Source: Blattabacterium cuenoti (GTDB lineage Bacteria; Bacteroidota; Bacteroidia; Flavobacteriales; Blattabacteriaceae). Taken from it: a DNA stretch of 64,000 nt. The notes below the pieces were generated by a model. The model searched no databases and had not been told where the DNA came from. It saw only the letters and a program-made list of their open reading frames with translations. The stretch is from positions 62,001 to 126,000 of the forward strand of contig NZ_CP059198.1 of the NCBI RefSeq assembly GCF_014251715.1, given 5' to 3'. Of the stretch, positions 1,120 through 60,958 are shown in pieces. The position numbers were made by a program, and so were the translations under genes. Position 1 is the stretch's first letter. Each line of letters opens with the position of its first letter.

Positions 1120-1135
1120 AATGACAAAGGTCATT
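1120..1135 (+). promoter_or_regulatory. Inverted repeat upstream of clpC
   Basis: AATGAC-AAAG-GTCATT is a perfect 6-bp inverted repeat with a 4-bp spacer, 46 bp before the clpC start. A TATATT element follows it by about 17 bp (near 1151). The half-site resembles those upstream of grpE and htpG in this window, which suggests a shared stress operator. The role is inferred. The spacer is one base longer than at the other two sites. Confidence 0.4.
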
Positions 1136-1180
1136 TGTAGAAATGAATGATATATTTTATCTTTTTATTTAACATTTTTA

Positions 1181-3310
1181 ATGATTTTAAATTATATGAT
1201 TCATCATTATTCGTCAAATAGTATAAAAAAAATTTTTTTCTCTTCTGCTTATTCAGATTCAGATGAAGATATTGAAAATGATAGTTCTACTTCTTCTTCT
1301 TATGGATCTGAAGGAAAGAGTTCTGGTTATTATGGAGGAGCTTCAATAAAAAGCAATACCCCTGTATTAGATAATTTTGGAAGAGATTTAAATGCTATAG
1401 CTATGGAAGGAAAATTAGATCCTGTAGTAGGGAGAGATCAGGAAGTAGAACGTGTATCTCAAATATTGAGTAGAAGAAAAAAAAATAATCCTTTACTTAT
1501 AGGCGAACCTGGAGTTGGTAAATCAGCTATTGCTGAAGGATTAGCATTACGTATTGTACAAAAAAAAGTTTCTAGAGTATTATATAATAAAAGAGTCGTC
1601 ATATTAGATTTAGCTAGTTTAGTTGCAGGAACTAAATATAGAGGTCAATTTGAAGAAAGAATGAAAGCTATTATAAATGAATCAGAAAAAAATACAGAAT
1701 TAATACTTTTTATAGATGAAATTCATACCATGATTGGAGCAGGTGGAACTACAGGTTCATTAGATGCTTCCAATATGTTTAAACCTGCTTTAGCAAGAGG
1801 ATATATTCAATGTATTGGTGCAACTACATTAAATGAATATAGACAATACATAGAAAAAGATGGTGCTTTAGAACGAAGATTTCAAAAAATTATAGTACAA
1901 CCTTCTTCTGAAGAAGAAACTATAGAAATTTTAAAAAAAATAAAGGGAAAATATGAAACTCATCATAATGTTCTTTATACAGAAAAAGCTATTAAAGCTT
2001 GTGTAAATCTTACGGGACGATATATTATTGATCGTTATTTGCCAGATAAAGCTATTGATGCCTTAGATGAATCAGGAGCTCGCGTACATATAAAAAATAT
2101 TAAAGTTCCACAAGAAATAGTTTTTCTAGAAAAAGAATTAGAAAGTCTTCGTAAAGAAAAATCTAAAGTAGTTAAAAGTCAAAAATATGAAGAAGCAGCG
2201 CGTTTACGTGATACAGAAAAACGTATAGAAAAAAAATTAATAAAAGCACAAAAAGAGTGGGAAGAATCTTCTAAAGAAAATAAAGAAATTGTATCCGAAG
2301 AAAATGTTGAAGAAGTGGTATCCATGATGAGTGGAGTTCCAGTTAACAGAATAGCTCAAGCTGAAATGAAAAAATTGAATAATATGATCAATCTTTTAAA
2401 AGATAAAATAGTAGGACAAGATGAAGCCGTAGAAAAAATAGTAAAAGCTGTTCAAAGAAATAGAACTGGATTAAAAGATCCTAATTCTATTATAGGATCT
2501 TTTATTTTTTTAGGTCAAACAGGAGTTGGAAAAACCTATTTAGCAAAAATTTTTGCGAAAGAATTATTTGATTCAGAAGAATCATTAATACGAATAGATA
2601 TGAGTGAATATATGGAAAAATTTTCTGTTACTAGATTAATAGGAGCTCCTCCTGGTTATGTAGGATATGAAGAAGGAGGACAATTAACAGAAATTATACG
2701 TCGTAGACCTTATTCTGTTATATTGTTGGATGAAATAGAAAAAGCTCATTATGAAGTATTCAATATTTTGTTACAAATATTGGATTATGGATGTGTTACA
2801 GATAGTATTGGAAAAAAAATAAATTTTAAAAATACCGTAATTATTTTTACTTCAAATACAGGAACACAGCAATTAAAAGAATTTGGTCAGGGTATAGGAT
2901 TTTATACTAAAGCAAGACAATCAAATAATTATATTAAAAATATTCTAGAACAAGCGTTAAAAAAAACTTTTTCTCCTGAATTTTTAAATAGAATAGACGA
3001 TATTATCGTTTTTAATTCTTTAACTAAAAAAGATATATCTAAAATAACTAACATAGAATTGGAAAAAATAATTTTACATGTATCTAATTTAGGTTATAAA
3101 TTAACTTTACTTCAGGAAGTAAAAGATTTTATTAAAAAAAAAGGATTTGACAATGAATATGGGGCTCGTCCTTTAAAAAGAGTAATAGAAAAATTCATAA
3201 AAAATCCTATATCAGAATGTATAATTAGTGAAAAATTAAAAAAAGGAGATCAAATTTTATTAAAAATAAATAATAAAAATAACGATATAGAAGTTATTAT
3301 TAATAATTAA
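1181..3310 (+). CDS. clpC: ClpC-type AAA+ unfoldase lacking the N-terminal Clp-N domain
   Basis: ATP-dependent unfoldase that feeds substrates to the ClpP protease in the cytoplasm. Two AAA+ modules are clear: Walker A GEPGVGKS at residues 108-115 with Walker B LFIDEIH, and a second Walker A GQTGVGKT near residue 445 with Walker B ILLDEIE. The middle domain carries the ClpC-type UVR-like segment (KYEEAARLRDTEKRIEKKL). A GIGF loop near residue 570 fits the ClpP-docking tripeptide. The protein has 709 residues against roughly 810-850 in the family. The paired Clp-N repeats of about 150 residues are absent, and the ORF begins in the acidic Ser-rich linker before NTPVLDNFGRDL. Only 70 bp separate it from dnaX, so the domain is not hidden upstream. 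Confidence 0.93.
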   Translation: MILNYMIHHYSSNSIKKIFFSSAYSDSDEDIENDSSTSSSYGSEGKSSGYYGGASIKSNTPVLDNFGRDLNAIAMEGKLDPVVGRDQEVERVSQILSRRKKNNPLLIGEPGVGKSAIAEGLALRIVQKKVSRVLYNKRVVILDLASLVAGTKYRGQFEERMKAIINESEKNTELILFIDEIHTMIGAGGTTGSLDASNMFKPALARGYIQCIGATTLNEYRQYIEKDGALERRFQKIIVQPSSEEETIEILKKIKGKYETHHNVLYTEKAIKACVNLTGRYIIDRYLPDKAIDALDESGARVHIKNIKVPQEIVFLEKELESLRKEKSKVVKSQKYEEAARLRDTEKRIEKKLIKAQKEWEESSKENKEIVSEENVEEVVSMMSGVPVNRIAQAEMKKLNNMINLLKDKIVGQDEAVEKIVKAVQRNRTGLKDPNSIIGSFIFLGQTGVGKTYLAKIFAKELFDSEESLIRIDMSEYMEKFSVTRLIGAPPGYVGYEEGGQLTEIIRRRPYSVILLDEIEKAHYEVFNILLQILDYGCVTDSIGKKINFKNTVIIFTSNTGTQQLKEFGQGIGFYTKARQSNNYIKNILEQALKKTFSPEFLNRIDDIIVFNSLTKKDISKITNIELEKIILHVSNLGYKLTLLQEVKDFIKKKGFDNEYGARPLKRVIEKFIKNPISECIISEKLKKGDQILLKINNKNNDIEVIINN

Positions 3311-30304: not shown

Positions 30305-30325
30305 TTAATGACATTATGTCATTAA
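30305..30325 (+). promoter_or_regulatory. Perfect 9-bp inverted repeat upstream of grpE-dnaJ
   Basis: TTAATGACA-TTA-TGTCATTAA is a perfect inverted repeat with a 3-base spacer, 58 bp before grpE. Its core TGACATTATGTC recurs exactly upstream of htpG and in related form upstream of clpC. No T-run follows, so a trpS terminator is less likely than an operator. Role inferred. Confidence 0.5.
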
Positions 30326-30383
30326 ATAAAATTTTGGCAAATATTTTGCTCTTAGTCCATAGGATTATGTAGAAAATATTATT

Positions 30384-30923
30384 ATGGATATAGACCAAAA
30401 AAAAACTGAAAAACAAGCATCATCATCTAATGATGTTTCTGATGCAGAATCTTCTTCTTGTATTAAAGAAATAAAAGAAATAGAGCTTCTTCAAGAAGAA
30501 TTAGAAAAAGATAAAAATAAATTTTTGCGTCTTTTTGCAGAATTTGAAAATTATAAAAAACGTATTAAAAAGGAAAGATATGATATTTTTAGGGCTATTC
30601 ATGAAAAAATTCTTATAGATTTAATTCCAATTTTAGATGATTTTGAACGAGGACTTAAAGAATTGAAAAAGTCTAAAGATGAATTTCTCGTTAGAGGAAT
30701 AGCCTTAATACAGGAAAAATTTATTAAAATTTTAAAAGAAAAAGGATTAAACAAAATAAAAATAAAAAAAGGAGATGATTTTAATACAGATTTTCATGAG
30801 GCAATTACACAAATTCCAGCTATAACAGAAGACTTAAAAGGAAAGATTATTGAAATCATAGAAGCTGGATATATTTTACAGGAAAAAGTTATACGACATG
30901 CTAAAGTTATTACCGGAAAATAA
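30384..30923 (+). CDS. grpE: Nucleotide exchange factor GrpE
   Basis: Co-chaperone that drives ADP release from DnaK. The 179-residue protein has an acidic Ser-rich N-terminus, a long coiled coil (IELLQEELEKDKNKFLRLFAEFENYKKRIKKERYD) and the C-terminal beta domain (FNTDFHEAITQIPA, IIEIIEAGYILQEKVIRHAKVITG). It is followed 9 bp later by dnaJ. An inverted repeat upstream suggests stress control; dnaK is not in the window. Confidence 0.95.
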   Translation: MDIDQKKTEKQASSSNDVSDAESSSCIKEIKEIELLQEELEKDKNKFLRLFAEFENYKKRIKKERYDIFRAIHEKILIDLIPILDDFERGLKELKKSKDEFLVRGIALIQEKFIKILKEKGLNKIKIKKGDDFNTDFHEAITQIPAITEDLKGKIIEIIEAGYILQEKVIRHAKVITGK

Positions 30924-30932
30924 TTATTTTTA

Positions 30933-32057
30933 ATGGTGAAAAAAGATTACTACGAAGTTTTAGGAGTTTCTAAAAACGCTTCTACAGAAGAAATTAAAAA
31001 AGCTTATCGAAAATTAGCAATAAAATATCATCCAGATAAAAATTTAGATAATAAAAAAAATGCAGAAGAAAAATTTAAAGAAGCAGCTGAAGCTTATGAA
31101 GTTTTAAGCAACTCAGAAAAAAGACAACGTTATGATAAATTTGGACATTCTGGAATAAAAGGGAGTAGTTCAGGTTCAGGAATGAATATGGAAGATATAT
31201 TTGCAAATTTTGGAGATATTTTTGCTGATGCCTTTGGAGTTGGAGAAAGTTTTTCTAGTTTTGGATTTGGACGATCATCTAGACATAAAACTATTAAAGG
31301 AAGTGATTTAAGAATTAGAGTTAAACTTTCATTAGAAGAAATAGCTCATGGAATAGAAAAAAAAGTGAAAGTTAAGAGACTAAAAGTATCTAAGGGAATA
31401 AAATTTAAAAATTGTAGATCTTGTAATGGTACTGGTCAAATAATACGTATTACCAATACCATTTTAGGAAGAATGCAAACAACATCTCAATGTCATGTAT
31501 GTTCTGGAACTGGAAAAAAAATAGATAATATTCCTTATGGAGCGAATAAATATGGATTGATTAAAGAAGAAGAATTAGTAAATATAAAAATACCTGCAGG
31601 ACTTACAGAAGGAATTCAACTTAAAGTTTCTGAAAAAGGAAATGAAGCTCCATTTGGAGGAATTCCTGGAGATTTAATTGTATTAATTGAGGAAATTCCT
31701 CATTATCAATTAAAAAGAGAAGGTAATAATCTACATTATGATTTATATATATCGTTTCCAGATGCAATATTAGGCGCTTCTAAAGAAGTTCCTACCATTA
31801 ATGGAAAAGCAAGAATAAAAATTGATCCAGGAACACAATCAGGAAAAACTCTTAGATTAAAAAATAAAGGGTTGCCTAATATAGAAGGATATGGGTATGG
31901 AAGTCTTTTAATTCATGTTAATGTTTGGACTCCAAAAAAAATTAATGAAGAACAAAGAAAATTTTTTGAAAAAATGAGAAAAAATGAAAATTTTCTTCCT
32001 CATCCCGGAAATTTAGAAAAATCATTTTTTGATCGTGTAAGAGAAATGTTTTCTTAA
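30933..32057 (+). CDS. dnaJ: Chaperone DnaJ with only two zinc-finger repeats
   Basis: Hsp40 co-chaperone that stimulates DnaK ATPase activity. The J-domain is intact ([25 protein letters not shown], then HPDK), followed by a Gly/Phe/Ser-rich linker. The zinc region shows only two CXXCXGXG units (CRSCNGTG and CHVCSGTG), not the four of E. coli DnaJ, so at most one zinc centre can form. I recall similar reduction in flavobacterial DnaJ, so it need not be a defect. The C-terminal substrate domains are complete. 374 residues. Confidence 0.94.
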
Positions 32058-59054: not shown

Positions 59055-60893
59055 TTATTTTTTAGTAAGATTTTCTAATTTTTCTGATATAAACAGAGTA
59101 AGATTTTTTCCATGTAACAAATTTTGAGATAAAAGAGTTAAGTTTAAAACTTCTTGAATCATTTTTTCTCTTTTTTTTTCACATGTTTCTTTTAATATTT
59201 TTTTCATAAAAATATGATTTGTATTTACTATTAATTGATAATATTTTTCTTTATCTTTTTCAAAAAATTCCTTTCCTATAGAATTCATTTCTTTTATTCT
59301 CCTTAAAAATTCTGGAACGATAATTAAAAATGGATAATCTTTTTTGGATAAATTTTCTAATTTAATGGAAAATTTATAATTTTCCATTAAATTAGAACTA
59401 ATAATATTTTTTAAATTTTTCTTTTCTGTTTCCGAAAGTTCTGAATAACATTTATCCTCTTTTTTATGATTAATTAATTTATCAATATGATCTGAATCCA
59501 CTCGAACAAAACAAATTTCTTTATAAGAAAATTCCAATTTTTGTATTAAATGAACCGATATAGGGCTATTTAAAATTAAAATTTCATAATTTCTATCTTT
59601 TGCTTCTTTAATATAACTATATTGTTTCTCTTTATCTGAAGAATAAAGAAAAACAATTTTACCTTCTTTATTTTTTTGGGTTTCTTTTATTTTTTCTTTA
59701 AACTCATCTAAAGTAAAGTAAACATTATTAACAGTGGAAAAAATAAAAAATTTTATAGCTTTAACAAAGAAGTTTTCTGTACTAATCATTCCATATTCTA
59801 CTATAATCTTTATATTTTCCCATTTATTTTGAAAATCTTTTCTATGATTTCTAAACATAGAATCCAATTTATCTGCTACTTTTCTTGTTATATATTTTGA
59901 TATATTTTTTACGGATGGATCTGATTGTAAATGAGAACGTGATACATTAAGTGGAATATCCGGAGAATCTATAACTCCTCTTAATAAACTAAGAAAATCT
60001 GCTACAATCCCTTCTAAATTATCCGTAATATAAACTTGATTTTGATATAAATGAATTCTTTCTTTTTGTATGTCAATTCTTTTTTCTATTTTCGGAAAAA
60101 ATAAAATACCTGTCAAATTAAAAGGATGATCTATATTTAAATGTATCCAAAATAAAGGATCATCTAACTGATGAGAATATAATTCATGATAAAAATTTAA
60201 ATAATTTTTATCACTTAACTGAAGTGGATTTATCTTCCAAGCAGGATTAATATTATTGATTATAGTTTCTTTTTCTTTATCCTCTATTGAGGATAAAGAA
60301 ATTGTGATAGGCATAAATTTACAATACTTTTGTAATAATTTTAAAATACGATTATATTCCAAAAATTCCTTGCTTTCTTCATTAAGAAACAAAACAATTT
60401 TTGTTCCTCTGTTTTTTTTTTCTATTTCTTTTATAATAAAATTTGTAGATCCATCACAAGACCAAAATATAGATGATGCATTTTTTTTATAAGATTTAGT
60501 AAATATCTGTACTTGATTTGACACGATAAAAGAAGAATAAAAACCTAATCCAAAATGTCCAATAATATTAGATGTTTTATATTTTTTAATAAATTCCTCT
60601 GCTCCAGAAAAAGCTATTTGATTAATATATTTTTTTATTTCTTCTTTTGTCATACCAATCCCATTATCTATAATATGAATACTTTTATTTTTTTTATCTA
60701 TGATAATTTTAATTTTAAAATCATCAATAAAATCATCAAAATTTCCTAGTTCTACTATCGTTTTTAATTTAAGAACAGCATCTGTTGCATTGGAAACAAG
60801 TTCACGCAAAAAAACTTCTTGATCAGAATAAAGAAATTTTTTAATAATAGGAAAAATATTATCTGAAGTAACACTAATTTTATTTTTTTCCAT
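59055..60893 (-). CDS. htpG: Molecular chaperone HtpG (Hsp90)
   Basis: A 612-residue Hsp90. The GHKL ATP pocket is clear: FLRELVSNATDAVLKL, IDNGIGMTKEEI and GHFGLGFYSSFIVS; the middle domain arginine loop SPDIPLNVSRSHLQ is intact; the C-terminal dimer domain is shorter and Lys-rich. Upstream on the same strand lie a TATAAT box (60927-60932) and an inverted repeat that matches the grpE one. It ends 4 bp from the convergent exonuclease gene. Confidence 0.95.
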   Translation of the reverse strand: MEKNKISVTSDNIFPIIKKFLYSDQEVFLRELVSNATDAVLKLKTIVELGNFDDFIDDFKIKIIIDKKNKSIHIIDNGIGMTKEEIKKYINQIAFSGAEEFIKKYKTSNIIGHFGLGFYSSFIVSNQVQIFTKSYKKNASSIFWSCDGSTNFIIKEIEKKNRGTKIVLFLNEESKEFLEYNRILKLLQKYCKFMPITISLSSIEDKEKETIINNINPAWKINPLQLSDKNYLNFYHELYSHQLDDPLFWIHLNIDHPFNLTGILFFPKIEKRIDIQKERIHLYQNQVYITDNLEGIVADFLSLLRGVIDSPDIPLNVSRSHLQSDPSVKNISKYITRKVADKLDSMFRNHRKDFQNKWENIKIIVEYGMISTENFFVKAIKFFIFSTVNNVYFTLDEFKEKIKETQKNKEGKIVFLYSSDKEKQYSYIKEAKDRNYEILILNSPISVHLIQKLEFSYKEICFVRVDSDHIDKLINHKKEDKCYSELSETEKKNLKNIISSNLMENYKFSIKLENLSKKDYPFLIIVPEFLRRIKEMNSIGKEFFEKDKEKYYQLIVNTNHIFMKKILKETCEKKREKMIQEVLNLTLLSQNLLHGKNLTLFISEKLENLTKK

Positions 60894-60926
60894 AAAATTA
60901 TTTGTAATAAAAATTAAAAAACAAAA

Positions 60927-60932
60927 ATTATA
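60927..60932 (-). promoter_or_regulatory. Candidate -10 box of htpG
   Basis: TATAAT on the minus strand, 33 bp before the htpG start and about 14 bp downstream of the inverted repeat at 60947-60958. Confidence 0.35.
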
Positions 60933-60946
60933 CCATTTTAAAAAAG

Positions 60947-60958
60947 GACATAATGTCA
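60947..60958 (-). promoter_or_regulatory. Inverted repeat upstream of htpG matching the grpE site
   Basis: On the minus strand: TGACATTATGTC, identical over 12 bases to the core upstream of grpE (stem GACA/TGTC with 3-base spacer). It sits 53 bp before the htpG start, just upstream of a TATAAT box, a good place for a repressor or activator site. Role inferred. Confidence 0.5.

Follow-up and report, generated by a model that had tools for sequence, protein, structure and literature searches.

Initiation by sigma-54 requires an AAA+ activator, and the -24/-12 element of sigma-54 promoters has the form TGGCA-N6-TTGC. Among the activators, PspF of Escherichia coli is a sensor-less EBP (AAA+ and Fis-type HTH only) that serves the phage shock response and represses its own gene, and the sites of NorR-type EBPs have the form GT-N7-AC. 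For the chaperone genes of flavobacteria, the closest described system is that of Flavobacterium psychrophilum, where start-site maps place groESL, lon, dnaK, grpE-dnaJ and htpG under sigma-54 in one co-expression cluster, and clpB and skp likewise under sigma-54; the activator was left open among three EBPs and no activator site was given (PMC9723704). A survey of 2025 predicted sigma-54 control of chaperones in Bacteroidota more generally (PMC12316311).

In this study, we describe a palindrome in front of chaperone genes of Blattabacterium which, on comparison of the genome sequences, most likely serves as the binding site for a sigma-54 activator dedicated to the control of these genes. The proposed system resembles that of PspF in the sensor-less layout of its EBP, in its stress targets and in the repression of its own gene (the last only proposed for the Blattabacterium EBP), but the sites of PspF lie further upstream and respond to membrane stress, whereas here we find a promoter-proximal dyad and cytosolic chaperones. 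The form TGTCA-N3-TGACA fits the NorR pattern, as is typical of a Fis-HTH dyad, and this likeness is a lead only: signal, targets and domain layout differ. There is also a resemblance to HrcA and CIRCE, with a palindrome ahead of groES and of the grpE/dnaJ genes, but sequence and size are different, the dyad is in helical phase with a sigma-54 promoter, and its role is probably activation and not repression. Most similar is the sigma-54 (SM4) chaperone cluster B254 of F. psychrophilum, since groESL, grpE-dnaJ and htpG have -24/-12 promoters in both and F. psychrophilum also lists a sigma-54 regulator-lptE operon with nearby locus tags; it differs in its three candidate EBPs, compared to one EBP and the core targets only in Blattabacterium (PMC9723704). 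That chaperone genes of flavobacteria have sigma-54 promoters is therefore already known, and what appears to be new is the site, the assignment of its activator and the retention of this system as the apparent sole sigma-54 circuit of Blattabacterium. We propose both the activator and its binding site for these promoters, neither of which is assigned in the literature searched; among the open-licence papers to which that search was limited, none mentions the dyad or assigns the EBP.

Palindromes in the window

The window is the whole stretch of 64,000 nucleotides that was analysed, with a G+C content of 24%, from a Blattabacterium genome of 621,487 bp. The first-pass annotation had noticed similar palindromes before clpC, grpE and htpG, and all three are present where it placed them (see the table), ending 45 bp (clpC), 58 bp (grpE) and 53 bp (htpG) ahead of the start codon. 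Its observation that the grpE and htpG palindromes have a 12-mer in common, TGACATTATGTC, is likewise correct, and the exact 12-mer occurs at only these two places in the entire genome. The idea of one motif for all three loci holds for grpE and htpG, but it fails for clpC, which has a 4-bp centre (TGAC-N4-GTCA) in place of the 5-bp centre (TGAC-N5-GTC). The conserved element is a 13-bp dyad, TGWCA-N3-TGWCA, which is matched both by the arms at grpE in this species (TGACA/TGTCA) and by the form found in its relatives.

Features of the window, with positions counted from its first nucleotide
Feature	Sequence	Position	Strand	Remarks
clpC palindrome	AATGACAAAGGTCATT	1120..1135		present; judged chance and outside the regulon; rank 110
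Sigma-A-like block before clpC	TTTG...TATCTTTT (block TTTGTAGAAATGAAAGAGATATTTTATCTT)	1134..1165	+	overlaps the 3' arm of the palindrome
Dyad before grpE-dnaJ	TGACATTATGTCA	30309..30321	+	predicted activator site, centre ~-45; extended palindrome TTAATGACATTATGTCATTAA, 30305-30325
Sigma-54 -24/-12 promoter of grpE-dnaJ	TGGCAAATATTTTGCT	30335..30350	+	TGGCA-N6-TTGC kept in relatives
grpE		30384..30923	+	NCBIfam GrpE models, ORF
dnaJ		30933..32057	+	ORF and sequence
htpG		59055..60893	-	NF003555 above cut-off
Sigma-54-like box of htpG	TGGTATAATTTTTGTT	60920..60935	-	GG-N10-GT; kept in relatives, some with TTGC
Dyad before htpG	TGACATTATGTCC	60946..60958	-	conserved form in relatives cTGACATnATGTCt; rank 2 in window; palindrome TGACATTATGTC at 60958-60947

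To rank these sites, we used a scoring matrix trained solely on the grpE, groES and miaB dyads of other species, with the present genome left out. Among all positions of the window, the grpE site scored highest with 20.3 bits and the htpG site came second with 12.5 bits, where Markov sequence leads one to expect 0.0 and 0.2 sites per 64 kb, respectively; the clpC palindrome ranked 110th at -5.7 bits. Genome-wide, the pattern TGACN{4,5}GTCA has just two matches, those at clpC and grpE, a count not above chance by composition alone, so the case for the grpE dyad comes from its conservation. Searching the genome for the 12-mer TGACATTATGTC with 2 mismatches gave no excess (50/65 against 46/62 for the control) because this pattern is too loose, and it was the symmetric TGWCATNATGWCA that yielded the signal.

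We judge the clpC palindrome to be a coincidence. The first-pass annotation had counted clpC in the regulon, and we rejected this membership on account of the low matrix rank, the differing centre, the lack of the palindrome in all 29 relatives (0/29) and the overlap with a block at 1134-1165 that is common to 13/29 relatives and resembles a sigma-A promoter, the match to -33/-7 elements being a reading by eye. Palindromes as strong as that of clpC are common in the window at this G+C content. Scanning the clpC region for terminator-like sites returned none, and an Rfam scan of the window at the gathering threshold found RNase P and tRNAs only, with no riboswitch or thermometer. The ClpC protein itself (window 1181-3310) gave no match to the Clp N-terminal domain, and the open frames of its relatives are similar, at about 700-740 aa; one relative (G026) has no clpC match, another (G029) a ClpB-like match only, and in a third (G028) the gene is in broken pieces.

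The dyad and the sigma-54 box in Blattabacterium and other Flavobacteriales

Across 41 Blattabacterium genomes, TGWCATNATGWCA occurs at 85 sites, compared to 2 for the reversed control. Three loci account for 71 of the 75 sites listed, with 24 at grpE, 21 at miaB and 26 at groES, and 4 sites lie elsewhere; the enrichment before groESL that the first-pass annotation had suggested looking for does exist. The promoter of groES stands out most, with the dyad followed by TTTGGCATGTTTTTGGC in nearly every species and a conserved -24/-12 box, TGGCATGTTTTTGGCT, as expected of a sigma-54 promoter. Upstream of grpE, nearly all relatives read retain TGTCATWATGACA, mostly 13 bp ahead of TGGCAAATMTTTTGC, and the gap between dyad and box ranges over 11-13 bp. 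The htpG locus is more variable: under a strict pattern, cTGACATnATGTCt and TGGTATAATYTTTGT precede the gene in about half of the species and are decayed in others, the box reads GG-N10-GT in most, and several have lost the site. Upstream of dnaK there is a conserved TGGCATAATGATTG (block TTATGGCATAATGATTG), perhaps a decayed sigma-54 promoter, together with a half-site only, TGTCAT, located by eye ~32-35 bp ahead (L241, L243-L252), and a pattern search at clpB saw neither dyad nor box; a lon gene was not located. That the motif does not look like CIRCE, as the first-pass annotation had noted, is borne out by the absence of TTAGCACTC-N9-GAGTGCTAA from the groES and dnaK upstream regions read.

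The distance from the dyad to the -24 box at grpE, groES and htpG falls into classes of 10-14, 23, 32-34 or 42-46 bp, which are whole helical turns apart. At a period of 10.5 bp the vector strength is 0.78 for grpE and groES and 0.79 for the distinct values, both to be taken as descriptive since related species are not independent. This spacing suits an activator that binds on one face of the DNA. No sigma-54 box accompanies the dyad at miaB. Instead, a sigma-A-like TAnnTTTR comes after it in 21/24 species, compared to 6.3 in shuffles; the EBP, whose gene is part of this operon, therefore probably represses its own operon from there.

The regulon had been suggested as one of this lineage, but the dyad and box are also found together before grpE in 14/20 other, free-living Flavobacteriales, representing 9 of 14 families, when the dyad is allowed at most 1 mismatch and a gap of 11-13 or 32 bp to the box that follows; 0 are expected in shuffles, and other genomes have near forms. 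An uncultured Flavobacteriales genome exhibits a gene order similar to miaB-EBP-lptE-secG-groESL, with the dyad before miaB.

The candidate activator and the alternatives

Exactly one rpoN (PF04552) and exactly one strong sigma-54 activator (EBP) are present in each of the 41 genomes. The EBP gene (G000:431406-432656) encodes 416 aa and lies in the order miaB-EBP-lptE-secG, followed by groES-groEL, with lptE named by position and having no Pfam match. The protein consists of an AAA+ domain (PF00158), a lid and a Fis-type HTH (HTH_8) that is nearly invariant among relatives, with no N-terminal sensor domain; we counted this as the domain layout of an EBP, its loop being GSFTGA, a one-residue variant of GAFTGA. 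Scores for the PspF equivalogs are below their cut-offs (TIGR02974, 269 against 443.55 bits; NF008622, 210 against 529). In the EBP (L155 2407-3654), residues 262-376, from the lid to the HTH, contain a conserved LYKxLFDMKKDLNDLK-like piece that matches no Pfam domain, also occurs in other Bacteroidota and is a candidate regulatory segment.

We propose that this single EBP would bind TGWCA-N3-TGWCA before grpE-dnaJ, groESL and htpG, on the same DNA face as the -24/-12 box and ahead of it by one to four helical turns, and that the bound EBP would remodel the sigma-54 RNA polymerase so that transcription starts. The signal, to judge from the target genes, would be heat or protein-folding stress, and the EBP would at the same time probably repress its own miaB operon. 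The stress operator of chaperone genes put forward in the first-pass annotation is largely upheld, in that the shared palindrome remains and a candidate regulator can now be named, but the element is order-wide, clpC is no part of it, and it probably works by activation of sigma-54 promoters. The operator as first written, specific to this lineage and common to clpC, grpE and htpG, drew on the likeness of the three palindromes by eye; given the centre length, the rank and the sigma-A-like overlap of the clpC copy, its absence from relatives and the order-wide occurrence of the dyad, we consider that version very improbable.

Several observations do not sit easily with an activator site. By comparison with most known EBP sites, the dyad, with its centre at ~-45, lies unusually near to the promoter, and the remote upstream site that is typical of these activators, although not required by them, was not found, the dyad lying 10-46 bp ahead of the -24 element. 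The GG-N10-GT box of htpG, the losses of the htpG site, the dyad without a box at miaB and the GSFTGA loop in place of GAFTGA also speak against it, as does the retention of EBP and rpoN in G026 despite the loss of the groES dyad. One may therefore ask if the dyad is instead the operator of a separate chaperone repressor, comparable to HrcA with CIRCE, with the EBP activating the sigma-54 promoters from elsewhere or enhancer-free. Such a repressor would account for the closeness to the promoter and for the place of the dyad at miaB, where a repressor would sit, and enhancer-independent sigma-54 activators are known in other bacteria (PMC3372290). However, phasing over 10-46 bp is better suited to contact with a promoter complex than to blocking, the intact and nearly invariant HTH of the only EBP needs a site, and the dyad also marks the operon of the EBP itself. 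The repressor is thus unlikely, and a phased dyad before a -24/-12 promoter, with the only EBP gene just before groESL, makes an activator site the likelier of the two. RNA hairpins were also considered, either as weak terminators or as the 3' ends of genes upstream, as the palindromes of this genome lie 7-11 bp past upstream stop codons and a T-run follows the htpG copy; this explanation was rejected as scarcely credible, because the sequence itself and not pairing alone is conserved and the position follows the sigma-54 box, in phase with it, and not the stop codon.

Retention of the proposed circuit in a reduced genome

Walczuchella, Uzinura and Blattabacterium have been noted as unusual in keeping rpoN, and a role in nitrogen metabolism was suggested for Walczuchella (PMC3971599). 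For Blattabacterium, the activator-site reading offers a possible reason for this retention, in that chaperone genes are the protein genes before which sigma-54 promoters were found; all other matches to TGGYA-N6-TTGY lie inside genes or rRNA. Most likely, judging from the genome comparison, the tiny genome of this cockroach endosymbiont retains a regulatory circuit dedicated to its protein-folding machinery, and it is notable that an obligate symbiont has held such a switch across about 40 genomes. We suggest more tentatively, as a possibility slightly less likely than not, that a single sensor-less sigma-54 activator, with its gene next to groESL, governs the cytosolic heat-shock response of Flavobacteriales and perhaps of Bacteroidota. 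This activator would bind a promoter-proximal phased dyad, would have its activity adjusted by GroEL/DnaK or by the folding state, and would replace sigma-32 and HrcA, with Blattabacterium keeping it as the only sigma-54 circuit left.

Some further observations concern individual genomes. In the smallest, G026 (L255) with 511 kb, the groES dyad is lost and the -24/-12 box is altered, with EBP and rpoN kept. Short repeats enlarge the N-terminal region of grpE in two others, G002 (L056) and G007 (L055), and G002 has two copies of the dyad, which are separated by 633 bp and lie near an N of the assembly. In the present window, two long perfect inverted repeats lie inside reading frames, at 717-758 in a dnaX-like frame and at 59355-59397 in htpG, with arms of 19 and 20 bp that are far longer than those of the other repeats in the window.
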